NCBI GenBank assembly: GCA_016872775.1
Contig: VGZA01000019.1
Span: 1 to 64,000 of the forward strand
Direction of reading: 5' to 3'
DNA length: 64,000 nucleotides
From: Planctomycetota bacterium
Lineage (GTDB): Bacteria; Planctomycetota; Planctomycetia; Pirellulales; Pirellulaceae
A model generated the notes under the pieces. That model saw only the letters and a list, made by a program, of their open reading frames with translations, did no database searches and was not told the DNA's origin. Positions 9,489 to 64,000 of the stretch are shown here, one piece after another. The translations under genes were made by a program, and so were the position numbers. Numbering within the stretch: position 1 is the stretch's first letter; each line of letters opens with the position of its first letter.

Positions 9489-12400
9489 CTAACTCCTCGT
9501 CTGTCGCAAATCGAGCGTCCGCAAATCGAGTGTCCAGGTCGTTTCCAGTGGCAACGATTCGTTCCGCAAAGACATCGGCCCGCCCGAGTGTCCATGGTCG
9601 ACAAAGCGCGCGGCTCGACGACATTCCGCTTCCAGTGCGTTGACTGGGAAGACCGCCGGGTTGAGTCCACCCGGATGGTCGACATGAAAGCGGCAGCCAC
9701 CAATGGAACGCTCCTGCCATAAATCCACAATATCAAATGTCAGTGGAGTGTGCACGGCCAAGGTGGGATGAAGGCAACTCGGCGGTTGCCAGGCCCGGTA
9801 TCGCACACCGCCTATCCATTGGCGCTGTTCGCCGGCAGATTGCAGCGGGACACGGCGTCCGTTGCAGTAGACGGCGTAACGCGGCGCGAGCATGCCGGAG
9901 AGTGCAACCTGCAGCCGCTCGACCGAGGAATCGACATACCGCGTCGTCCCGCCGCCGGATGGCTCCTCGCCCAACACGTACCAGGGCTCCAGCGCCACGC
10001 GCAGTTCCAATCGCACTCCATCGTGCTCGATTTCACCGATTCTCGGGCATCGGAATTCCCAGTGCGGGCGAAACCATTCGTCAGCGAAAGGAAAGTCGTT
10101 TTTTCGTAAGTCAGCCAGGACTTCGCACAGGTCGGTCCAGAGCGGGCCGGGCAGCAGCCAACGATCGTGCAAGAGCGTATTCCAGCGAATCAACGCCTGC
10201 CGGTACGGCTGCCTCCAGAACCAGGCGACCAGGGCGCGGACCAGCAGTTGCTGCGTCAGACTCATCCGGGCATGCGGCGGCATTTCGAATCCGCGCAACT
10301 CCACCAGCCCCAACCGGCCGTTCGCGTGATCGGGCGAGAACAACTTATCAATGCAGAACTCCGCACGATGCGTGTTGCCGGTAAGATCGACCAGCAGGTG
10401 ACGGAAGACACGATCGACGAGCCACGGCGCCACGGAAATTCCGTCCGGCTCAGGAATTTGACGGCAGGCAATTTCCAATTCATACAGCGCGTCGCGACGC
10501 CCCTCATCGACGCGCGGCGACTGGCTGGTCGGCCCGATGAACTGGCTGGAGAACAAGTACGACAACGACGGATGATTGTTCCAATAAGCGAGCAGGCTCC
10601 GCAGCAGGTCCGGCCGGCGCAGAAAAGGACTATCGGCCGCGGTCGGCCCGCCCAGTACCAGATGATTGCCGCCGCCCGTGCCGGTGTGTTTTCCATCGAG
10701 CTGAAACTTTTCCGTGCCCAATCTCGATTGCCGCGCGTCGTCGTAAACGCCGCAGGTGATCTCACAGAGTTCCTGCCAGTCAGCGGCCGGCTGGACATTC
10801 ACCTCGATCACGCCCGGGTCGGGGGTCACTTTCAGGATCCGCAGGCGCGGGTCCGCGGGAGGCAAATAACCTTCGATGACCACCGGCGTACGCTGCTGCT
10901 CCGCGACAGCTTCCACGGCTCCGACCAGTTCCAGGTAATCTTCCAGGCGGCTCAGTGGCGGCATGAAGACGTGCAGAATCCCATGCCGCAGCTCGACGCA
11001 GAGCGCGGTGGCGATCCAGTCACCGCTGGGAAAGCTGTCCGCCGAATCCGTAGCATCGCGAGGCGGTTTCTGGCGCCGCTCCGGCTGCGGAGTTCGCGAC
11101 CCGCCTTGCGCCTGATGCGTAATCGAGGCCTCCGGTGTAGCAATCGATCCGCGTCTGGACCGTGCCCGGAATTCGGCTTGCAGGTCCAGTGCGCGGCGAC
11201 GAATTTCCTGGTAGCCCGGCAGCGGCCGACGTTCGGCGAACGGATCGATGGGATACTGCTGTCGAAATTCGGTCGCTCCGCCGACCGGCAACGAGTCGAG
11301 CGGCAGGCGCAGACCGATCGGCGAATCGCCGGGGATCAGGAAGAGCCGTTCGGAGCGCAGCGGCCACGGTCCGCTGATCCAGCGTGGGGCCGCCTGCCAC
11401 CAGGCCTTCGTCAACGGCATCACGTAACCGACCGGGCGCGTCGCTCCCCGTTCCAGGATCGATGCCAGTCGCCGCCGGTCCTCGTCGTCGTCGGGATCGA
11501 ATTCGCGCGGATCGACGTCGACCGGCATCTTCCGCTCCTGTTCGATCGTTCTCCAGATATCTTCATACGCCGGGCGCATCCAACGTCTTTCGACCTCCAG
11601 GCGGTCGGCCAGATCGCCGAGAAATTCTTCGGCTTTCTCGATATCGCCGTGCTCAACATCGCCGCGCTCGCTTGCGCGACGCTCCCGATCGAGACCGCCG
11701 GACAGGGCGGGATCGGCCAGCAGTTCCGGGTTGGTCCAGATCGGCTGGCCGTCGACGCGCCACAAGCAGCTGTAGGCCCAGCGCGGCAGCGGTTCTCCGG
11801 GATACCATTTTCCCTGGCCATAGTGCAGTAACCCGCCGGGCGCGAATCGCTGTCGCAGTCGCCTCAACAGTTGGCCGGACAGTTGTTGTTTGTGGCTCCC
11901 GACCGCCGCCGTCGTCCATTCGGCGCCCTGCATGTCGTCGATCGAAACAAACGTCGGCTCGCCACCCATCGTCAATCGCACGTCGTCGTGATGCAAACGC
12001 TGGTCGACCGCGGCTCCCAGATCTTGAATCTCCCGCCATTGCCGATCGCTGTACGGCAACGTGACGCGCGGGTCCTCATGAATGCGCGTCACCTGCATCT
12101 CAAAGCGAAATTCCGACTCACATTGTTCCAGGGGGCCGGAGATCGGCGCGGCGGTCGACGGGGCCGGAGTCGCCGCCAGGGGCAAATGTCCTTCGCCGGT
12201 GAACAAGCCGGACGTTGGATCGAGTCCCACCCAGCCGGCGCCGGGCAGGTAGACTTCACACCAGGCATGCAGGTCGGTGAAATCGTGCTCCGGGCCTGAC
12301 GGACCATCCAGCGACTTCTGATCGGATTTCAGCTGGACCAGGTACCCGGAAACAAACCGCGCGGCCAGTCCCAGCCTACGGAGCAGCTGCACCAGCAGCC

Positions 12401-12953
12401 AGGCCGAATCGCGGCACGACCCCGAACTTGTTTCCAACGTTTCCCGGGCTGTTTGCACTCCCGGCTGCATCCGAATCACGTAACGAACGTCGCGCCACAG
12501 CCGCTGGTTCAAGTCCACCAGGAACGCCGTCGTCCGCCGCCGCCGACAATCGATCGACTTCAGGTAATTGTCAAACAACGGGCCGCACGGCTGGCATTCG
12601 AGAAACGGTTGCAGGTCCTTCGCCAATTCCGCCGGGTAGGCAAATGGAAAATCCTCGGCGTAGTCCTCGATGAAAAAGTCGAACGGATTGATCACCGTCA
12701 GATCGGCCGTCAGATTGACTTCGACACGAAACAGTTCGGTCGAGTCGGGGATGACCAGCCGGGCCAGGAAATTACCGAAAGGGTCTTGTTGCCAGTTAAG
12801 AAAATGCCGCGCGGGGAGGATTTCCAACGAGTAACTGGCGATCGGTGTACGGCAATGCGGCGCGGGCCTGAGCCGAATCACCTGCGGGCCAAGCGCCACC
12901 AAGCGGTCGTAGCGATATTCGGTCAAGTGCCGCAGCGCGACGCGAATCGTCAT
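9489..12953 (-). CDS. transglutaminase-DUF2126 protein
   Basis: A 1154-residue protein. Residues 1-90 are the N-terminal beta domain (MTIRVALRHLTEYRYDR). Then comes a transglutaminase core with Cys180 in SSGSCRDSAW, His229 in DLHAWCEVY and Asp245 in VGLDPTSG. From about residue 300 to the end is the large DUF2126 region, starting near LTMGGEPTFVSIDD, which is thought to include a glutamine-synthetase-like or related catalytic fold but has no proven activity. The frame extends to 13079 inside the alpha-E gene; the ATG at 12953 is chosen because relatives begin with MTIRVALxHxTxYxYD. It sits between the alpha-E gene (49 bases upstream) and the fusion gene (about 40 bases downstream), all on one strand. 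Confidence 0.92.
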   Translation of the reverse strand: MTIRVALRHLTEYRYDRLVALGPQVIRLRPAPHCRTPIASYSLEILPARHFLNWQQDPFGNFLARLVIPDSTELFRVEVNLTADLTVINPFDFFIEDYAEDFPFAYPAELAKDLQPFLECQPCGPLFDNYLKSIDCRRRRTTAFLVDLNQRLWRDVRYVIRMQPGVQTARETLETSSGSCRDSAWLLVQLLRRLGLAARFVSGYLVQLKSDQKSLDGPSGPEHDFTDLHAWCEVYLPGAGWVGLDPTSGLFTGEGHLPLAATPAPSTAAPISGPLEQCESEFRFEMQVTRIHEDPRVTLPYSDRQWREIQDLGAAVDQRLHHDDVRLTMGGEPTFVSIDDMQGAEWTTAAVGSHKQQLSGQLLRRLRQRFAPGGLLHYGQGKWYPGEPLPRWAYSCLWRVDGQPIWTNPELLADPALSGGLDRERRASERGDVEHGDIEKAEEFLGDLADRLEVERRWMRPAYEDIWRTIEQERKMPVDVDPREFDPDDDEDRRRLASILERGATRPVGYVMPLTKAWWQAAPRWISGPWPLRSERLFLIPGDSPIGLRLPLDSLPVGGATEFRQQYPIDPFAERRPLPGYQEIRRRALDLQAEFRARSRRGSIATPEASITHQAQGGSRTPQPERRQKPPRDATDSADSFPSGDWIATALCVELRHGILHVFMPPLSRLEDYLELVGAVEAVAEQQRTPVVIEGYLPPADPRLRILKVTPDPGVIEVNVQPAADWQELCEITCGVYDDARQSRLGTEKFQLDGKHTGTGGGNHLVLGGPTAADSPFLRRPDLLRSLLAYWNNHPSLSYLFSSQFIGPTSQSPRVDEGRRDALYELEIACRQIPEPDGISVAPWLVDRVFRHLLVDLTGNTHRAEFCIDKLFSPDHANGRLGLVELRGFEMPPHARMSLTQQLLVRALVAWFWRQPYRQALIRWNTLLHDRWLLPGPLWTDLCEVLADLRKNDFPFADEWFRPHWEFRCPRIGEIEHDGVRLELRVALEPWYVLGEEPSGGGTTRYVDSSVERLQVALSGMLAPRYAVYCNGRRVPLQSAGEQRQWIGGVRYRAWQPPSCLHPTLAVHTPLTFDIVDLWQERSIGGCRFHVDHPGGLNPAVFPVNALEAECRRAARFVDHGHSGGPMSLRNESLPLETTWTLDLRTLDLRQTRS

Positions 12954-54648: not shown

Positions 54649-54814
54649 ATCGGCAATTGAATTGCCTGCGCAATTGCGATTTCCGATCGACGAGAACGGA
54701 CATTCCGCCCCGAATTGAATTCAAGAATTGTAGCGGGCAGACGGGTACGAAATGGATCGCGCCACGGCGTCAGCGCCGGGCACGCGGTCCCCGGTTGCCG
54801 CTACGGCGACAGCG

Positions 54815-55138
54815 ATGCAAATACTGCAAGGAATTGCGGTTTCGCCAGGCATTGCCATCGGCGAAGCTCGAATCATCACCAGCGATGGATATCGCATTCG
54901 TCGTCGCGGCATCTCTGCCGATGCCGTCGACGGTCAGCTCGAGCGGCTGCGGGCCGCCTGTGCCTCCGTGGCGGACGATCTTGAGCATCCGCGTGCGCGG
55001 GATGCCGCCCCCTCGGAAGAACTTTACCCTGCGATCTTGTCGGCCCACGCACCGATTCTCGCCGACCAGACATTACCTGCGCGGAGAATTCAAGAAAGCG
55101 GCGCTGGAACTTGCTGCGCCCACCAGGTTTATCCCTAG
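54815..55138 (+). pseudogene. ptsI: truncated PTS enzyme I
   Basis: About 107 codons, of which the first 85 or so match the enzyme I N-terminus: ILQGIAVSPGIAIGEARII, then helices with LERLRAACASVADDLE and AILSAHAPILADQTL, part of the HPr-binding region. Right after DQTL the match stops and 20 unrelated residues lead to a stop. The phospho-His domain (GGxxSH) and the PEP-binding TIM barrel are gone (full length about 570-590 residues). The next gene starts 16 bases later. A large internal or 3' deletion is the simplest reading; an assembly error is possible. The frame also opens at ATG 54752. Confidence 0.82.
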
Positions 55139-55154
55139 ATTGGAAAACACGCTT

Positions 55155-56768
55155 ATGAAGAAAGAAATGCTGATTAACGTATCGCAACCCGAGGAATGTC
55201 GGATCGCGGTCATCGAAGACGGATTGCTGGAGGAACTGTACGTCGAACGAGCCAGCCAGGACAACTATGTCGGCAACATCTATCGCGGCCGGATCGTCAA
55301 TCTGGAACCGAGTATTCAGGCGGCATTTGTCGACTTCGGCGTGGGCCGCAACGGGTTTTTGCATGTGAGCGACGTGGAATCGCAGTACTTCCGACAGGGC
55401 GGATACGATCCCGACCAGCCGATGGGAGGGCGGATGGCCGACATCGATTTGGGCGAGGACGAATCGGAGGGCGAGCAGGGACGGCGACGCGGCCGCGGTC
55501 CGCGCAATGGCGGGCGGCCGCGCATCAAGCCTCCGATCCAGGAGATCTTCCGCCGCGGCGACGAAGTACTCGTCCAGGTGATCAAGGAAGGCATTGGCAG
55601 TAAAGGCCCCACGCTCTCCACCTATATCAGCATCCCCGGCCGCTACCTGGTTCTGATGCCGGCTCTGGGGCGTGTCGGCGTCTCAAGAAGAATCGAGGAC
55701 GACGAGGTACGCCGATCACTCCGCGATATCATGCTCGAACTGAACCCGCCCCGAGGCCTGGGGTTCATCGTCCGCACTGCCGGGCAAGACCGCAGCCGGA
55801 AGGAACTTTCCCGCGATATGGCCTACCTGGTGCGGCTATGGAAATTGATCGCGCGGCGCGTCAAGAAGCAGACCGGACCCCAGGGAATCTATGAAGAAAG
55901 CGACATGATCATTCGCACGATTCGCGACATCTTCAGCGCCGATATCGATGCGATCCATATCGACCAGCCCGAGGCATTTGAACGGGCCCGCGAGTTCCTG
56001 CACCTGGTGATGCCGCGCTACGTCCACCGCCTCCACCATTACGAAGGACGCGAACCGCTGTTCCACAAGTACAAACTGGAATCGGAGATCGGCCGCATCC
56101 ACACCCGCCAGGTACCGCTCAAGGCGGGAGGTTCCATCGTGATCGATCAGACCGAAGCGCTGGTCGCGATCGACGTCAACAGCGGCAGCTTCCGCAAAGA
56201 CGACAACGCCGAGGAGACCGCTTACCAGTTGAATATCGCGGCGGCCAAGGAAATCGCGAGGCAACTGCGACTGCGCGACCTGGGGGGCGTCATTGTCAAT
56301 GACTTCATCGACATGCGACGTGAAAGGCATCGGCGCGGCGTCGAACGGGCCCTGCGAGACGCCATGAAACGGGATCGCGCACGCACCAAGATCCTCCGCA
56401 CCAGCCCGTTCGGATTGATTGAAATGACGCGCCAGAGGATCCGCCCCAGTATCAATCGCAGTGTCTATTCAAGCTGCCCCTGCTGTACCGGACGCGGCAT
56501 GGTCAAAACGGCCGAAAGTATGGCGATCGAAGTCGTCCGCATGCTGATGCTCGCCAGCCACCAGCCCAATATCGCGCGCGTCACCGTGCGGGTAAACCAT
56601 GAAGTCGCGACCTATCTCAATAATCGCAAACGCCGCGAACTTGCCATGCTGGAAGAGGATGGAAAAATGGCCGTCCAGATCCTCGGCGGCGACGGACTGT
56701 TTCCCGAACACCTCGAACTCGATTGCCGCGACATTGAAGGACGACAGCTGACCCTGCCAACCTCCTGA
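55155..56768 (+). CDS. rng: Rne/Rng family ribonuclease
   Basis: A 537-residue ribonuclease E/G, an endonuclease for mRNA and rRNA processing. The S1 domain is at about residues 35-150 (NYVGNIYRGRIVNLEPSIQAAFVDFG) and carries an acidic/Arg-rich insert (GEDESEGEQGRRRGRG). The catalytic Mg ligands are in VAIDVNSG and VIVNDFIDM. The zinc link is CPCC in SSCPCCTGRG. No long disordered C-terminal scaffold is present, so it is RNase G-sized. The first bases lie right next to the truncated ptsI, so its native promoter or leader may have been changed. Confidence 0.92.
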   Translation: MKKEMLINVSQPEECRIAVIEDGLLEELYVERASQDNYVGNIYRGRIVNLEPSIQAAFVDFGVGRNGFLHVSDVESQYFRQGGYDPDQPMGGRMADIDLGEDESEGEQGRRRGRGPRNGGRPRIKPPIQEIFRRGDEVLVQVIKEGIGSKGPTLSTYISIPGRYLVLMPALGRVGVSRRIEDDEVRRSLRDIMLELNPPRGLGFIVRTAGQDRSRKELSRDMAYLVRLWKLIARRVKKQTGPQGIYEESDMIIRTIRDIFSADIDAIHIDQPEAFERAREFLHLVMPRYVHRLHHYEGREPLFHKYKLESEIGRIHTRQVPLKAGGSIVIDQTEALVAIDVNSGSFRKDDNAEETAYQLNIAAAKEIARQLRLRDLGGVIVNDFIDMRRERHRRGVERALRDAMKRDRARTKILRTSPFGLIEMTRQRIRPSINRSVYSSCPCCTGRGMVKTAESMAIEVVRMLMLASHQPNIARVTVRVNHEVATYLNNRKRRELAMLEEDGKMAVQILGGDGLFPEHLELDCRDIEGRQLTLPTS

Positions 56769-56883
56769 CTTCCCCGTTCCCCGTGTACGAATCGGTCGGT
56801 TCCGCGCCACCAATCAATCGCTCAGCGGCGGCGGTGGTTGTTGCCGACGGGCGTTCTTAACTACTCGGAACAGGGAGCATCTC

Positions 56884-59094
56884 ATGGCTCGTGCTGGTCG
56901 ACTGCGCGCTCGCCGCGCCGGGAACGAACGTAACCGTCCGCGGCTGCGGAGGTTGATGATTGAAAGTCTGGAATGCCGCCGCGTCCTCGATGCGGGGGCG
57001 GGCCTGTTGGGCGGCCATCTGATCGTCCATGGCAATGGCGATGACAACAGTATCTCGGCGTTTGTCGCGGAAGAACGGCTGCATGTCGTGATTGACGACG
57101 TGTCGTTCAGTTTCCCGAATGCTCTTGTCCAGCGTATTTGCGTCTACGCCGAAGGGGGCGACGACAAGGTGGTCATCGACCCTAGCGTCCTGCAGCCGAC
57201 GCTGTTGAACGGCGGAACCGGGAATGACTTGCTCGTCGCGGGCAGCGGCCGATCGGAGATGTATGGGGGCGATGGCAACGACCGAATCCAGGGCAGTCCT
57301 CAGGATGATTTGATACGCGGTGGAATGGGAGACGATGCGGTGCGAGGTGCCGGCGGCGACGACGCGATCGCCGGCGGCGAAGGCGACGACGACTTGGCAG
57401 GCGGTGAGGGCAACGATCGCATCGACGGCGGTGTCGGCAACGATCGCATCGGTGGCGGTTCCGGCAACGATCGGATCCAGGGCGACGCCGGCGACGACAC
57501 GATCGAAGGGGGAGCGGACAACGATGGGATTAACTCGGGAGCTGGCAACGATCGCGTGGATGGCGGCGATGGCGACGACCTGATTCAAGGCCAGGAGGGA
57601 GCCGATGCGCTGTTCGGCGGAAATGGGAGCGACACGATTTTCGGCGGCACGGGCAACGATCAAATCGACGGCGGCGAAGGCAACGATCGGCTGAACGGCG
57701 ACGCGGGGAACGACACCATTCGGGGCGGCGCGGGCGACGACGCAATCCAGGGCGGCGTCGGCAGCGATCGACTGTTTGGCCACGAGGGAAATGATGAAAT
57801 TCAGGGCGACCCTACCGTCAACCTGGAGGACCTCCCAAGTGCCACCGACGAGGATGGCCCGGATTGGCGGGAGAGCGAGCCGACGGCCGACGGCGCGGAT
57901 CCGGAACGGTCGTTCAACGATCTGATCGTGGGTGGTCCCGGAAACGACTGGCTCTGCGGCCAACGCGGCAACGATCGCATCCTGGGGGGCGCCGGCGATG
58001 ACGGTATCGACGGCAACAGCGGACATGATTGGCTCGACGGCGGCGAAGGGAACGATCGAATCGAGGGTGGAACGGGAAACGATCTGGCGTTTGGCGGCGA
58101 GGGCGATGACGGACTCGCCGGCGGTCCAGGCCATGACGGGTTGGTAGGAGGTGACGGCAACGATCGGCTCGTCGGTGGTACCGGCAACGACTGGATGTTC
58201 GGCGATGCCACAAACAGCCTGCCGCGCGGCTTGACGAGCGCCTGGGGCTATGCACTCGAATACGGCGATCAGGGCCGCGGCGAGGACGCGATCGAAGGGA
58301 ACGACGGCGACGACGTCATCTTCGCGGGCAATATGAACGACCGCGCCGACGGTGGTGATGGCAACGACATCCTCGCGGGAGGATGGGGACGCGACCTGCT
58401 GGGCGGAGGTGGAGGCGATGACATCATTGTCGGCGATCCACGCGACGGGGCCGCCAGTTCCGACGAAGAGACGCCCGGACTCGATCGACTTGATCCGCGT
58501 TATCGCGAATCGCTGGGAGAACAGGCCCCCGAAAACTCGGAACTGGCTGCCAACGCCAATGATTGGATCGAGGGCGGAGACGGCAACGATATTCTGCTCG
58601 GCAAACTGGGCGACGACGAGATTCACGGCAACGAAGGGGCCGACTTTATCCGCGGCGGCGTCGGCTCGGATCGACTCGCCGGCGGCGCAGGCCGTGATGC
58701 AATTCACGGCGGTAGAGGAGACGACAAAATCGACGGCGGCGAGGGCAACGACTACCTGACCGGCGGGTTGGGCAACGATACCATTCGCGGCGGCTGGGGG
58801 GACGATACGATCGAAGGCAATGCTGGAAACGACCAGTTGTTCGGCGACGATGGCGACGACCGGATCCAAGGCAATGACGGTGACGACCAGTTGGAAGGCG
58901 GTAACGGCCATGATCGGCTCTACGGCGGCCAGGGAGACGATCGGATCGTGGGAGGTCGCGGCCGAGATTACCTGGAAGGCGGACCGGGCGCCGACAAAAT
59001 TGACGCCCGCGATCTGGCGGTCGATCTGATCTGCTCGGATGACCTGGACGCGGTTCTCTATGATCTGGAACTCGATCTCTTCGGCTGCGAATAG
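56884..59094 (+). CDS. RTX-type calcium-binding repeat protein
   Basis: A 736-residue protein. The N-terminus is Arg-rich and carries IESLECRRVLDAG, a planctomycete signature found at the start of large secreted proteins. From about residue 100 on it consists of RTX nonapeptides of the GGxGxDxUx type (GGTGNDLLV, GGDGNDRIQ, GGAGDDAIQ), interrupted by two short linkers. Such repeats fold into calcium-filled beta-rolls outside the cell. The protein ends shortly after the last repeat. No secretion genes are nearby. ggag at 56872-56875 supports ATG 56884. Confidence 0.9.
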   Translation: MARAGRLRARRAGNERNRPRLRRLMIESLECRRVLDAGAGLLGGHLIVHGNGDDNSISAFVAEERLHVVIDDVSFSFPNALVQRICVYAEGGDDKVVIDPSVLQPTLLNGGTGNDLLVAGSGRSEMYGGDGNDRIQGSPQDDLIRGGMGDDAVRGAGGDDAIAGGEGDDDLAGGEGNDRIDGGVGNDRIGGGSGNDRIQGDAGDDTIEGGADNDGINSGAGNDRVDGGDGDDLIQGQEGADALFGGNGSDTIFGGTGNDQIDGGEGNDRLNGDAGNDTIRGGAGDDAIQGGVGSDRLFGHEGNDEIQGDPTVNLEDLPSATDEDGPDWRESEPTADGADPERSFNDLIVGGPGNDWLCGQRGNDRILGGAGDDGIDGNSGHDWLDGGEGNDRIEGGTGNDLAFGGEGDDGLAGGPGHDGLVGGDGNDRLVGGTGNDWMFGDATNSLPRGLTSAWGYALEYGDQGRGEDAIEGNDGDDVIFAGNMNDRADGGDGNDILAGGWGRDLLGGGGGDDIIVGDPRDGAASSDEETPGLDRLDPRYRESLGEQAPENSELAANANDWIEGGDGNDILLGKLGDDEIHGNEGADFIRGGVGSDRLAGGAGRDAIHGGRGDDKIDGGEGNDYLTGGLGNDTIRGGWGDDTIEGNAGNDQLFGDDGDDRIQGNDGDDQLEGGNGHDRLYGGQGDDRIVGGRGRDYLEGGPGADKIDARDLAVDLICSDDLDAVLYDLELDLFGCE

Positions 59095-59128
59095 TTCCTG
59101 CATCGGGTTGCTCGCCACTTCCCAGCCC

Positions 59129-59163
59129 CAGGCCCCTCGATTCGAAAAGAGTTGAGGGGCCTG
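59129..59163 (+). terminator. terminator-like hairpin
   Basis: A perfect 10-base stem CAGGCCCCTC/GAGGGGCCTG with a 15-base loop lies 35 bases after the RTX gene. The T tail is weak (TTGCGTT). Confidence 0.6.
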
Positions 59164-59399
59164 TTGCGTTGCGGCGCGACCCGTTCCCTGCAAACGCAGG
59201 CGGTCTGGATAAGATAGGGTGGCTGTGGCGGATGCGGACCAAAATTGGTCTAGTGGATTCGCCCCCTACGAGCTAAATTACCCGGCCGAAGTGGACTGAT
59301 CCGAGGGTGGGATGCTTGGCGGCGAGGCGAGCTTGCTTACAGAGGCGGCTCGGATCGTTGGGCTCCTGGCCTTGAGGTCTCAAGCGCACGGAGGTGCTT

Positions 59400-60623
59400 A
59401 TGTCGGGGGAACTTGTTCGATTCATTCATGCCAGCGATTTCCATCTCGAGCAGCCGGTTCACGGTCTCAATTCGATCCCCGATTCACTGCGGGATACTGT
59501 GTTGGAGGCGCCGTATCTAGCGGCGAGCCGCGTTTTTGACGGGGCGATCCTGGAGCATGTCGATTTTGTCGCGATCAGTGGCGATCTTTATGATCCCGCC
59601 AGTAGTAGTCCTCGCGCGATCGCGTTTCTGCTGGAGCAATTTGAGCGGCTCGAGGCCCAATCGATTTCCGTTTACTGGAGCATTGGCGCTGCGGAGGGTG
59701 CGAATCCCTGGCCGGCGGCGGTTCCGTTGCCGAGCAATGTTCACTTGTTCCTGCCGGGCAAAGTGGACGAACTCATTCATATGCGGGAGAACCAGGCTCC
59801 AATTACGCTGTGTGGCGTGGGCTGGAATGAACGGCATCGGATTTCCCCCTCCGAGTTTCGATCGGAGTCGATGAACACGTGTCGGATTGCGATCGTCTAC
59901 GGTTCGTACGATGCCCACGCTCTGCAGAAGCAGTACGTGCACTATTGGGCGCTGGGTGGGGAGCACCAGCGGCGGACATTGTTTTCAGCACCGCACACCG
60001 CCCACTTTGCCGGTAGTCCCCAGGGACGCTCGCCCTTCGAGGTCGGTCCGCACGGATGCACTCTCGTCAGCATCGATTCGGACGGGAAGATCCGCACGCA
60101 GCTTGTGGCCACCGACAGTCTGCGGTTTTATCAGGAGCGTCTGACGTTGACGGAGGCGATGACGCGCGGTGACCTGCAGCGGCAGTTGCGGGATCGTTCC
60201 CAGGCGATTGGGACGGAGATCGGGGACCGCACGGCACTCGTCTCCTGGCGGGTGGAAGGGGCGAATCGGCTGGCGAGTTCGCTACGGCAGGGCGGGATGG
60301 CGACGGAAATCCTCACGGAATTGCGCAACGAATTCGGCCAGCGTCGAAACGCGGTCTGGGCGGAATCGCTGGAGGTGGAAGCACCGTCCGAAATGCCGGC
60401 GGCCTGGTATGAGGAGGATTCGATCTTAGGTGATTTCCTGCGAGCGGTGCGCGATCGCGAACAATCGTCATCGGACGCGCTGGAGATCTCTCAATTCTTA
60501 TCTGTGGATCAGTTTCGTGGCGAGCTGGGAGCATCGCTGGATGTGACGCACCCCGAAACTCGCCAGCGCGTGCTGCGCGAAGTTGCACTGTTAGGCGTAG
60601 ACCTGTTGCGCGGCAACGATTGA
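59400..60623 (+). CDS. SbcD/YhaO-like metallophosphoesterase with altered metal site
   Basis: A 407-residue protein with the layout of YhaO/SbcD-type nuclease subunits. The first metal motifs are intact: ASDFHL (Asp13, His15) and SGDLYD (61-65). The GNHD motif expected after VYWS reads IGAAEG (95-100), the next His is Tyr167 in IVYGSYD, and the GHxH motif reads ALGGEHQ (187-190), with only one His. So the metal centre is probably incomplete. The C-terminal half has the accessory domains. ATG 59400 follows ggagg (59390-59394). It precedes the YhaN-like gene by 23 bases; the two normally form a complex. A structural rather than nuclease role is possible. Confidence 0.8.
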   Translation: MSGELVRFIHASDFHLEQPVHGLNSIPDSLRDTVLEAPYLAASRVFDGAILEHVDFVAISGDLYDPASSSPRAIAFLLEQFERLEAQSISVYWSIGAAEGANPWPAAVPLPSNVHLFLPGKVDELIHMRENQAPITLCGVGWNERHRISPSEFRSESMNTCRIAIVYGSYDAHALQKQYVHYWALGGEHQRRTLFSAPHTAHFAGSPQGRSPFEVGPHGCTLVSIDSDGKIRTQLVATDSLRFYQERLTLTEAMTRGDLQRQLRDRSQAIGTEIGDRTALVSWRVEGANRLASSLRQGGMATEILTELRNEFGQRRNAVWAESLEVEAPSEMPAAWYEEDSILGDFLRAVRDREQSSSDALEISQFLSVDQFRGELGASLDVTHPETRQRVLREVALLGVDLLRGND

Positions 60624-60646: not shown

Positions 60647-63600
60647 GTGAAGATACATGATGTAAAGATCTGCGGCTTCGGTGTCTGGACCGATATGAGC
60701 GTCGAGCGTCTGGCGAACGACGTCACCGTTTTTTACGGGCCGAATGAGGCTGGCAAGACGACCCTGATGCAGTTCATGCGCACGGTGTTGTACGGTTTCA
60801 CGCGCGAACGACGAGCGAGGTACCTGCCGCCCGTGCACGGAGGTCAGCCTGGCGGAACTCTGCGGGTCGAGGGACCTCGCGGTACATTCGAGATTCATCG
60901 GCGCGCGGGGACGCACGACCTGCCCGACGCTCCGGGCGAAATCACGGTGCTGGATGCCGCGGGTGCCGTGCAGGGCGCCCCGCAGCTTCCGGCGCTGCTG
61001 GGGGGACTCGACGAGACCATCTTCAGCAACGTTTTCGCGATCGGTTTGCGCGAGATGCAGGAGCTGGGAACGCTGAACGACTCCGCGGCCGCGGATCAAC
61101 TCTACAAGCTGACCAGCGGGCTCGATCGGGTTTCGCTGATCGATGTGATGCGCGAGCTTGCCGAGGCCCGCGAGCAGATTCTGGCGCCCGACGATTCCAC
61201 CTGCCAGCTCAGCCATCTTCTTGACCGGCACGACCGCCTGCGCAGGGAAGTCGATGAATTGGCGATTCGCGGCCGTCGCTGGCCGCAGTTGGCGGCACAG
61301 CGCGCGACGATGGTCAAGGAGATCGAGGATCTGGAGAAGCTGGTCCAGGAAGTGCAGATCGAGCTGCAGCGTTACGATTTGGTGCTGCAGGTCCGCGATA
61401 AGTGGTGGCAACGGCGGAGCGTTGAAGAACAGCTTGCGGCGATGGGACCTCCCTTGGACGTCGTACCGGACGCGCTCGACCAGCTCGAGCAGATGCGGGG
61501 CCGCCTGGGAAAACTCCGTCGCAAGATCTCGCAGGCGAAGAAACAAGGCCAGCAGTTACGCCAGGAACGCGACCGTCACCAGGTCAATCGGTCCCTCTTG
61601 TCGCAGGCTACACGCATCCAGGCGCTGACGGAGCATGGCCCCTGGATTGGTTCGCTGGAGTCGGAGGTGCAGCGCCTGCGGGGCGAGGTTACCGCGCTGG
61701 AACGCGAGCTCGAAGCTCGCCGGCCCCAGATTGAAATGCCGGCGAGTCAGCCGAAAGGAAAGCTGTCGGAAATCTCCGGCAAGTCGCTGGCGTTGTTACG
61801 CGCGCCGGCCGCGAAGCTGAACCATCTCAATAAACTCGTGGAAAGGACGCAACGCGACGCGCAGGCGGTCAAGGTCCGCACCGACCAGGCCTTGCAGCGC
61901 GTTTCGTCGGAGCTTGCCGAATTGGACGAATCGAGTCTGAGTGCCGCCCTGGAAAAGGCGACGACGCGCGTGGCGCTGCTGCGCCGGCGGATCCAGATCG
62001 AAGAACGGCTGGATGAACTTGCCAGCCAGAGGAAATCGCTGGAAGACCAGGGGCATCTGCTGTTCGATGGCCAGGTCATGCCGTTCGAAAAAATGGCCTG
62101 GCAGTTCGCGGGCTTCGTGGTCGCGGTACTTTTGATCTTCACCGGATTCTTTGGCGGATGGCTGTGGGGCTTCGACGGTTTCCTCGGCTTCGTGATCTCG
62201 ATGTTCGGCTTCGTGATGCTGGGCGTTTCCGTGTTCTCCAAGTTGGAATGGGATCGGGAAGCGCGAATGAAACTGGAAAACTGCGAGCGGCAACGGGCGT
62301 TGCTGGACAAGCAGTTGCAGGAAACCGAGGCCGAGAGAGAAGAGCTCGACGAACAACTGCCCGCGGGCGGTGGTCCGCTTGATGCGCGACTCGAACAAGC
62401 CGAGAAAAACCTGCAGCACCTCGAACAGTTGACGCCGATGGACGCGGTCCGGCACGAATCGGGGCAGCATGTCGAGGTGGCGGAACAGCGAGCCACGCGA
62501 GCGGGGGAGGAGCTCAAAGAAGCGCGCAAGAACTGGCAGCACGCACTGCGCAGCGCGAATCTGCCCGATCACCTGATGCCCAACGACATCCGGCATCTGA
62601 TGAAAGGCTTCCGCCAGCTGTCGCAGGTCAAGCGGCAACTCGATCAGCGGCGTGACGAGCTCGAATCGCGACGTCGGGAACTGGCTTCCCTGGCGGGAAG
62701 AATCACCGAACTGTTTACCGAGGTGGGGATCAAGACGGACGAGGAGAGTCCGCAGTCTCAGTTAAAGCAGCTCGCGGTCGCACTGCTCGACCAGCAGCAG
62801 ATACTGCAGCGCCGCGAAGGCGCGGGGCAGTTGTACCGTAAGGCCCGGGCTCGCTGGGCAGCGTTACGGAAGCGACACGACAGTGTAACCCGGGCGCGCG
62901 GCTCGCTGCTGGCCCGAGCCAACGCCCGCGACGAGGACGAATTGCGAGCCATGCTCACGCGCCAGCAGCAGGTTGCCGCGTTGCGGGCGCAGCGGGAGAC
63001 GCTCTCCCAGGAAATTCGGCTGGTCGTAAGTGACCAATGGTCGGACGAAGCGTTGGCGCGGGAACTTTTGAACCGCGAGGAGGACGCGCCGGAAAAACGC
63101 CGTCAACGGCTGCAAACGCGGCTGCATGAATCGAAATCGAAAGTCGCGCAATTCCACGAAAAGCGCGGGCAGCTTGCCGCCGAAATGAAAGCGCTGGCCG
63201 ACGATCGCCGCCTGATGGAGGCCAAGTTGGAACTGGGCTGCGTCGCGCGCCAAATGCGCAAGGCCGCGGAACGATGGCAGATTTTCGCGGTGATCGGGCT
63301 GATTCTGGAGTCGGTCCGCGGCACCTACGAGACGACGAGACAGCCCGAGACGCTGCGCGAGGCATCCCAGTTCCTCGAGAAGCTGACCCAGGGGCAGTAC
63401 CTGCGGATCTGGACTCCGATCGAGGAAAAGGTGCTGCGGATTGACGATTGCAACGGGCAGACGCTCTCGCTGGAAAAGTTAAGTCGCGGCACGCGCGAAG
63501 CGGTGTTTTTGAGCTTACGGCTGGCGCTGGTGGCAGGTTATGCGCGCCGCGGAATTGTGCTGCCGTTGATCCTTGACGACGTGCTTGTCAATTTTGATAC

Positions 63601-64000
63601 GGGACGCGTGCGCTCGTCGGCTCGCCTGCTCCGCGAATTCGCGACCCACGGTCATCAATTACTGTTCTTTACCTGCCACGAGCATGTGATGCGGATCTTC
63701 AAGGCCGAGAACGCCGATATCCGCGTTCTGCCAGGACGTGCCGTTTCGGGGAAACTTGAACCGCTGCAGGAACCCCGGCCGATCGTCGCGCCGGCTCGAT
63801 CCCTAGCGACCCCGATCGCAATGGTTGCCCCGACGGCAACGGTCCCCGCCTCGGGACAAGTCGCGCCGGCACCCGCCGCCGCTCTCCGAGTCGATTCGCC
63901 CTCTGTTGAGGAGTCGATACCGGCACGGGAGACTCGACCGCGGCGACGTCGATCGACCACTCCAAATCGGCCGGCCGATACCGAGTCGCAGGTGATCCCC
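60647..64000 (+). CDS. YhaN/SbcC-like AAA ATPase, membrane-spanning (3' partial)
   Basis: At least 1118 codons, running past the window end. It is an SMC/Rad50-like ATPase: Walker A GPNEAGKTT (residues 31-39), long coiled coils (about 200-450 and 540-900), the signature LSRGTRE (945-951) and Walker B LPLILDDVLVNFD (972-984). In the middle, about 487-535, are two adjacent hydrophobic helices (FVVAVLLIFTGFFGGWLWG and GFVISMFGFVMLGVSVF), which mark the YhaN type and place the coiled coil at the membrane. After the ATPase head comes a Pro/Ala-rich, then Arg-rich tail. GTG start with gggagga at 60634-60640. It pairs with the upstream phosphoesterase. Confidence 0.9.
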   Translation, partial: MKIHDVKICGFGVWTDMSVERLANDVTVFYGPNEAGKTTLMQFMRTVLYGFTRERRARYLPPVHGGQPGGTLRVEGPRGTFEIHRRAGTHDLPDAPGEITVLDAAGAVQGAPQLPALLGGLDETIFSNVFAIGLREMQELGTLNDSAAADQLYKLTSGLDRVSLIDVMRELAEAREQILAPDDSTCQLSHLLDRHDRLRREVDELAIRGRRWPQLAAQRATMVKEIEDLEKLVQEVQIELQRYDLVLQVRDKWWQRRSVEEQLAAMGPPLDVVPDALDQLEQMRGRLGKLRRKISQAKKQGQQLRQERDRHQVNRSLLSQATRIQALTEHGPWIGSLESEVQRLRGEVTALERELEARRPQIEMPASQPKGKLSEISGKSLALLRAPAAKLNHLNKLVERTQRDAQAVKVRTDQALQRVSSELAELDESSLSAALEKATTRVALLRRRIQIEERLDELASQRKSLEDQGHLLFDGQVMPFEKMAWQFAGFVVAVLLIFTGFFGGWLWGFDGFLGFVISMFGFVMLGVSVFSKLEWDREARMKLENCERQRALLDKQLQETEAEREELDEQLPAGGGPLDARLEQAEKNLQHLEQLTPMDAVRHESGQHVEVAEQRATRAGEELKEARKNWQHALRSANLPDHLMPNDIRHLMKGFRQLSQVKRQLDQRRDELESRRRELASLAGRITELFTEVGIKTDEESPQSQLKQLAVALLDQQQILQRREGAGQLYRKARARWAALRKRHDSVTRARGSLLARANARDEDELRAMLTRQQQVAALRAQRETLSQEIRLVVSDQWSDEALARELLNREEDAPEKRRQRLQTRLHESKSKVAQFHEKRGQLAAEMKALADDRRLMEAKLELGCVARQMRKAAERWQIFAVIGLILESVRGTYETTRQPETLREASQFLEKLTQGQYLRIWTPIEEKVLRIDDCNGQTLSLEKLSRGTREAVFLSLRLALVAGYARRGIVLPLILDDVLVNFDTGRVRSSARLLREFATHGHQLLFFTCHEHVMRIFKAENADIRVLPGRAVSGKLEPLQEPRPIVAPARSLATPIAMVAPTATVPASGQVAPAPAAALRVDSPSVEESIPARETRPRRRRSTTPNRPADTESQVIP

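Follow-up and report, generated by a model that had tools for sequence, protein, structure and literature searches.

The window, as the whole analysed stretch of 64,000 nucleotides (contig VGZA01000019.1, assembly GCA_016872775.1, a planctomycete of the Pirellulaceae) is called here, contains a gene for a phosphoesterase of the Mre11/SbcD/YhaO type in which several metal ligands are missing, and this gene is directly followed by one encoding an ATPase. The question raised by this locus is what such a protein does beside its partner. The initial annotation of this DNA offered two answers, a phosphoesterase turned structural or a different active site, in both cases within a membrane-spanning complex of the YhaN/YhaO type. 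Both answers were studied by comparing the pair with its homologues, with predicted structures and with known systems.

The phosphoesterase gene and its active site

The open reading frame runs on the forward strand from an ATG at position 59400 to a stop codon at 60623, with a GTG at 59394 as alternative in-frame start, and encodes a protein of 407 aa. Its direct readout agreed with the motifs as first described, that is, DxH and GDxxD are present and GNHD, the following His and GHxH are changed. Motif I (13-DFH-15; 59436–59444) conserves the metal-1 ligands D13 and H15, and the bridging ligand D62 of GDxxD (61-GDLYD-65) is retained at 59583–59585. GNHD is replaced by G96-A97-A98-E99 (59685–59696), with both the metal-2 Asn and the catalytic His gone; Y167, in a VYG at the end of predicted strand 161–167 (59898–59900), occupies the place of a metal-2 His; and G186-G187-E188-H189 (59955–59966) replaces GHxH, so that the first His, of metal 2, is gone and the last one, of metal 1, is present. 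Metal 1 reads therefore D, H, D, H, and the positions of the Asn, the proton donor, the fourth His and the first GHxH His read A, A, Y and G, so that four of the eight compared active-site residues are missing. The protein retains four of the seven metal ligands and falls short of the full SbcD/Mre11 set, which comprises the seven ligands and the proton-donor His. The literature searched gave no direct ligand numbering for Mre11, and the roles of the ligands were taken from LpxH and transferred by motif order; in LpxH numbering, Mn1 of the metallophosphoesterase superfamily is held by Asp8, His10, Asp41 and His197, and Mn2 by Asp41, Asn79, His114 and His195, as described in PMC5016852.

The protein scored under the cut-off of both domain models considered, with 16.8 bits for Pfam Metallophos PF00149 (cut-off 21.5) and 21.6 bits for the SbcD model TIGR00619 of NCBIfam (cut-off 77.65). 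An AlphaFold2 model built from 62 sequences reached a pLDDT of 91.3 and a pTM of 0.86. Foldseek matched this model to 3av0_A (E 1.9e-15), and VIA-align, which covers only the candidates of Foldseek and in which the absence of a family is thus uninformative, gave a Z of 25.8 to 4tug_C (rmsd 3.4, 284 residues aligned). Both searches on the predicted model point to an Mre11-type fold with its capping region.

Other genes of the window were also noted. Positions 56884–59094 encode a 736-aa protein of RTX calcium-binding repeats, with 18 HemolysinCabind stretches, and a 778-aa antisense open frame overlapping it (56857–59193, minus strand) is probably a mirror of the repeat. A Ribonuclease E/G family protein is encoded at 54657–56768; its domain match, at residue 325, is a long way downstream of the listed TTG start, and for this reason the true start is probably later.

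Loss of the site across the family

The homologue set, from which open reading frames under 60 bits were excluded, consisted of 205 rows representing 188 distinct proteins, 151 degenerate and 37 intact. This assignment was made by profile score (A1 against A2), and both trees described below agree with it. The degenerate proteins, which belong to the Pirellulales and to another family of the same class (f21), were split into 131 core and 20 divergent members, and one of the 151 is a partial row (L055) without the N-terminal part. The alignment of homologues suggested in the initial annotation indicated that the loss is lineage-wide: the site is incomplete in all 151 distinct degenerate proteins, and all 37 intact relatives keep the ten positions examined. 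A sequencing or frame error was consequently rejected.

Among the 151 degenerate proteins the Asp and His of motif I are retained in 131 and 109, respectively, and the Asp of GDxxD in 108. At GNHD, the Asn is found in 2, the proton-donor His in 3 and the following Asp in 136. The fourth His persists in 59, with Tyr in 46; the first His of GHxH appears in a single protein, with Gly in 135, and the last one in 97. All four metal-1 ligands are found together in 91 of the 131 core members and in none of the 20 divergent ones (91/151 overall, the window protein included), and the three private metal-2 ligands are not found together in any of the 151. Mapped onto the roles known from LpxH, these counts indicate that the metal-1 set tends to survive and the metal-2 set is lost, and by sequence the site is a half-dismantled one, a pattern overlooked in the initial annotation. 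Most metal-1 ligands are gone as well in the 20 divergent members, where the alignment of the motifs is uncertain. In three proteins (L058, L065 and L068), encoded by genomes that belong to the same family or order, few or almost none of the ligands remain.

Position 187 is the sole one conserved in both groups with a different residue (Gly at 0.97 in the 131 core members, His at 1.00 in the intact proteins). Positions conserved in the core degenerate members alone include W93, with a frequency of 1.00, W104, P105, F117, W283, R348 and G399. The comparison of the 131 core members with the intact proteins did not identify any newly conserved Asp, Glu, His, Asn or Cys at or near the lost positions. 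D55 was the lone possible ligand among the degenerate-specific conserved positions and, since Asp is also what the intact proteins most often have there (0.51), there appears to be no conserved replacement ligand. The possibility that neighbouring residues complete a normal two-metal site thus finds no support in the alignment or in the predicted structure. The C-terminal region is conserved at 0.448 in the degenerate and at 0.381 in the intact proteins, but the two sets differ in diversity and no conclusion was drawn from this gap.

These data bear on a remodelled enzyme, in which the metal-1 site (D13, H15, D62 and H189) would bind one ion and act on another substrate or as a slow nuclease. 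The four metal-1 ligands coincide in 91 of the 131 core members, where about 60 would be expected under independent losses (single-site frequencies multiplied and kinship ignored). In addition, the catalytic His is replaceable, LpxH being described as active despite its change to Arg (PMC5016852), so losing this His alone is no proof of inactivity. Metal binding and some chemistry may therefore persist in degenerate proteins, given the joint survival of the metal-1 ligands in 91 of 151 and of the fourth His in 59. However, at least one metal-1 ligand is absent in 40 of the 131 core and in all 20 divergent members (one of them a partial row) and the gene has been retained, there is no new conserved catalytic residue, and the Asn and the first GHxH His are gone in nearly all degenerate homologues. 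We consider this explanation unlikely. The different active site of the initial annotation is weakened, yet it keeps some probability because the four metal-1 ligands persist in 91 of 151.

The adjacent ATPase

The ATPase gene starts with GTG at position 60647 on the forward strand and runs beyond the end of the window at 64000; in a longer stretch (L153) it encodes 1201 aa. Its product scored 64.6 bits for Pfam AAA_27 (cut-off 22). Walker A (GPNEAGKT) is encoded at 60737–60760, and the ABC signature LSRGT and Walker B (LPLILDDV, with LILDD as its core) at 63479–63583, in near-invariant columns of alignment A4. Reading of the full 1201-aa sequence upheld the first description of a partner with the three motifs intact, and together with the AAA_27 score it allows classifying the protein as YhaN/Rad50-like. 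Two hydrophobic segments by Kyte-Doolittle (residues 480–498 and 512–530; 62084–62236) form a putative transmembrane hairpin in the middle of the coiled coil. The predicted model (pLDDT 80.3) has a pTM of 0.41, which makes the overall arrangement weak, and presents a long helical region with helices at 480–506 and 511–570. SMC, MukB, Jet and Rad50 proteins were its best structural matches, and by sequence these were mainly Rad50. Residues ~1045–1201 constitute a long Pro/Ala-rich tail, probably disordered, C-terminal to the head.

The surroundings of the gene were compared at 80 named loci, the best 80 among the matches listed, all with planctomycete titles. The ATPase gene lies directly 3' in 78 of them, the adjacency typical of YhaO/YhaN, and the other two (L090 and L107) end with the contig. 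No other conserved neighbour that might hint at a process was seen at these loci, the remaining clusters being, as judged by position, apparent antisense or other-frame overlaps with the two genes themselves or limited to few loci. Every one of the 70 full-length named partners (>900 aa) has a hydrophobic mid-protein segment predicted to be transmembrane, and 53 have two. Walker A is likewise present in 70/70, and all three motifs were recovered by strict pattern in 66, the remaining four showing the near-variants LSRGA, LSNAA or LIWDD. The script used for this scoring did not detect an ATPase in L209, L228 and L234; an annotated one exists in L209.

Partners from family f21 were of two sorts, ten with a hydrophobic segment and six without it at the threshold used. 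Five of the six have the signature and Walker B and one (L193) showed neither by pattern, and all six end in domains resembling those that Pfam assigns to DUF4332 in the two scanned, L198 and L199. Neither membrane anchoring nor an intact ATPase is therefore universal. These six loci (L193, L198, L199, L201, L203 and L204) carry a second degenerate Mre11-like kind, whose ATPase lacks the membrane segment and bears tandem DUF4332/helix-hairpin-helix-like domains at its C-terminus. Among the 28 intact pairs scored, 20 ATPases are without a segment and eight are of the membrane type (L191 twice, L210, L229, L230, L231, L235 and L236), so a membrane ATPase is not tied to the loss of the nuclease, and an intact pair of the membrane type probably preceded this loss. 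L191 (genome G093) contains two intact YhaO-like genes, 1098–2471 and 11164–12525, about 10 kb apart and each with its own membrane-type ATPase.

Genome distribution and the intact paralogue

A search of 60 genomes, including that of the window, gave a match in 57, and profile score and motifs assigned the degenerate type to 56 of them. The other matching genome, G041, carries the intact type alone. No match came from G005, G030 or G043 in this search; G043 gave a weak one (E 6.4e-6) in a wider scan of class and phylum, in which matches were classified where DNA was retrieved. A further scan related to f21 covered 20 stretches with 21 scored open reading frames, 16 degenerate and five intact; 19 of the 21 came from f21 and two intact ones from G093, of family f50. 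No close relatives were found in viral contigs, using single-protein patterns sensitive to close relatives only.

This distribution is relevant to a membrane-anchored device for defence or plasmid control, akin to SMC-type Lamassu and Wadjet, with the degenerate subunit as sensor. In a PADLOC scan of the two proteins of the pair, the ATPase gave a weak match to LmuB (E 3.8e-10, best stretch 134–466), and its model resembles JetABC of Wadjet and Lamassu chains, among condensin, MukB, Smc5/6 and Rad50; the phosphoesterase had no match to LmuA. However, coiled coils inflate such matches, the gene is near-universal (56/60 genomes) rather than patchy, and the ATPase is, as judged by position, the sole conserved neighbour family at the loci. 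A role in defence or plasmid control is improbable.

The genome of the window contains a second pair, also overlooked in the initial annotation, which consists of an intact phosphoesterase (L002) and its ATPase (L154) on contig C5. The motifs of L002 are DIH, GDLYD, GNHD, LHT and GHIH, and it scored 47.9 bits for PF00149, above the cut-off, and 59.3 bits for TIGR00619, under it. No canonical SbcD above the curated cut-off was found in this genome, the intact paralogue included. A weak match on contig C3 was considered as a third YhaN-like gene and discarded, as by sequence reading it is an SMC protein; the AAA_27 search also matched the control genome. The paralogue was found at >470 bits in 30 of the 60 genomes, that of the window among them, and weaker matches of this search were other relatives, e.g. 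in G002, G033, G036 and G037.

The degenerate subunit could regulate, or heterodimerise with, an intact paralogue of the SbcD/YhaO type whose gene lies at another site of the genome, as both kinds coexist in 29 of the 60 genomes. However, the degenerate gene is alone in 27 and the reverse occurs in G041, so it is not merely a helper of the intact paralogue, and a dependence on it was rejected. Furthermore, a separate ATPase gene adjoins each kind, and the ATPases of one kind group apart from those of the other. Such a partnership has very little probability in its favour.

Evolutionary history and selection

A phosphoesterase tree of 80 rows, which takes 38 of the 151 degenerate rows and in which odd composition and long branches (among them L058, L065, L068 and L203) were flagged, placed the 38 degenerate proteins on one side of a single branch with a support of 100/96. 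A second tree was built from 42 ATPase heads, with L094 and L138 left out because the script did not detect a signature and a subsequent Walker B in them. Here the ATPases paired with degenerate proteins, 21 in all, grouped with a support of 100/99 and 14 soluble ones with 100/100. Both trees were midpoint-rooted. The simplest reading of these sequences would be one loss, with the partner co-evolving.

For 35 close pairs (>72% identity) from 28 chosen genes, the 20 unsaturated ones gave dN/dS values of 0.013–0.137, and the degenerate gene is under purifying selection. A decaying pseudogene without function, to which the free variation of the lost positions could be ascribed, was therefore rejected as extremely improbable, W93 being invariant in the core members and the gene being kept in 56 of the 60 genomes.

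Comparison with known systems

In the Mre11-Rad50 complex, where the heads of Rad50 are held by a dimer of Mre11, ATP drives the change from one clamp state to another, and the coiled coil of Rad50 bears a zinc hook. The window pair shares with SbcCD/Mre11-Rad50 the Mre11 fold with its capping region and a Rad50-type ATPase with Walker A, signature and Walker B. Unlike it, the window phosphoesterase is without the metal-2 ligands and the proton-donor His and lies under the SbcD cut-off, and its ATPase has a putative membrane hairpin in mid coiled coil where Rad50 has the zinc hook.

The YhaO/YhaN pair is also known as SbcEF, and in pairs of this type a phosphoesterase likewise adjoins an AAA_27 ATPase. 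Mid-coil hydrophobic segments are also present in the eight membrane-type intact pairs, including one from a Deinococcus plasmid, but these retain GNHD and GHxH, and the intervening His was read in all but L210. SbcEF is described as poorly characterised in PMC6452273 and is listed among SMC-like systems in PMC12748557. The intact pair L002/L154 of the same genome resembles that of the window in its phosphoesterase, 29% identical, and in having an ATPase alongside; unlike the window pair, it has every active-site residue and an ATPase without a transmembrane segment.

To our knowledge, the B subunits of eukaryotic DNA polymerases have no Rad50-like ATPase as partner, and they belong to a different complex. 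The likeness lies in that they would derive from DP1 of PolD as Mre11-like phosphoesterases inactivated and kept as structural subunits (PMC2669801, PMC4996933), and PMC2669801 presents these small subunits as inactivated relatives of the PolD exonuclease. Point mutants also offer a comparison. The nuclease-deficient H84Q change in SbcCD is reported to cost only ~15% of the ATPase activity (PMC6265447), and in human Mre11/MRN H129N is described as nuclease-dead but still able to bind DNA and to activate ATM, whereas D130V fails (PMC3642328). D130 is taken here as the Asp of GNHD, from the "adjacent aspartate" of PMC3642328. In the degenerate homologues the Asn and His of GNHD are lost but the Asp is kept in the 136 proteins mentioned above (the window protein has Glu99), which by analogy with H129N versus D130V would fit a selection for conformation and DNA binding and not for cutting. 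Our literature search, which covered few subscription papers, found no description of the degenerate family.

Proposed role and significance

The reading that we favour, with a probability of about 0.65, is that the protein is dead as a nuclease and serves as a structural or regulatory subunit in a clamp of the Mre11-Rad50 type anchored in the membrane; from the data above we infer its absence of nuclease, membrane insertion, dimerisation and DNA tethering. The second metal site and the proton-donor His would have been lost, by the simplest account in a single event, in an ancestor shared by the Pirellulales and at least family f21 of the same class, and since then the protein would have been retained as a subunit of its Rad50/SMC-like ATPase. 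The ATPase heads would bind and hydrolyse ATP, and the Mre11-like dimer would bridge them and gate or sense DNA. The coiled coil would end in a membrane hairpin and not in a zinc hook, so that the complex could clamp or tether DNA at the membrane and leave it uncut. With the putative hairpin near the midpoint of the coiled coil, an ATP-driven clamp or tether of DNA at the membrane would be the most likely role. With respect to the initial annotation, its idea of a phosphoesterase that became structural, paired with an intact ATPase that apparently spans the membrane, is favoured by the lineage-wide loss, its position on one branch, the selection on the gene and the lack of a replacement ligand.

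More tentatively, and with somewhat less than even chances, members of the class may have a widespread, nuclease-free and membrane-anchored SMC-like tether or clamp of the Mre11-Rad50 type, with the hairpin at the apex of the coiled coil and the former nuclease acting only as gate or sensor, the second degenerate version of f21 having exchanged the hairpin for tandem DUF4332 (helix-hairpin-helix-like) domains.

The roles of Mre11 as a nuclease and as an organiser of Rad50 have so far been addressed with point mutants. A natural and widespread family that has lost the nuclease site but retained fold, partner and ATPase under selection would constitute a natural separation-of-function system, and it is a candidate for the attachment of planctomycete DNA to membranes.
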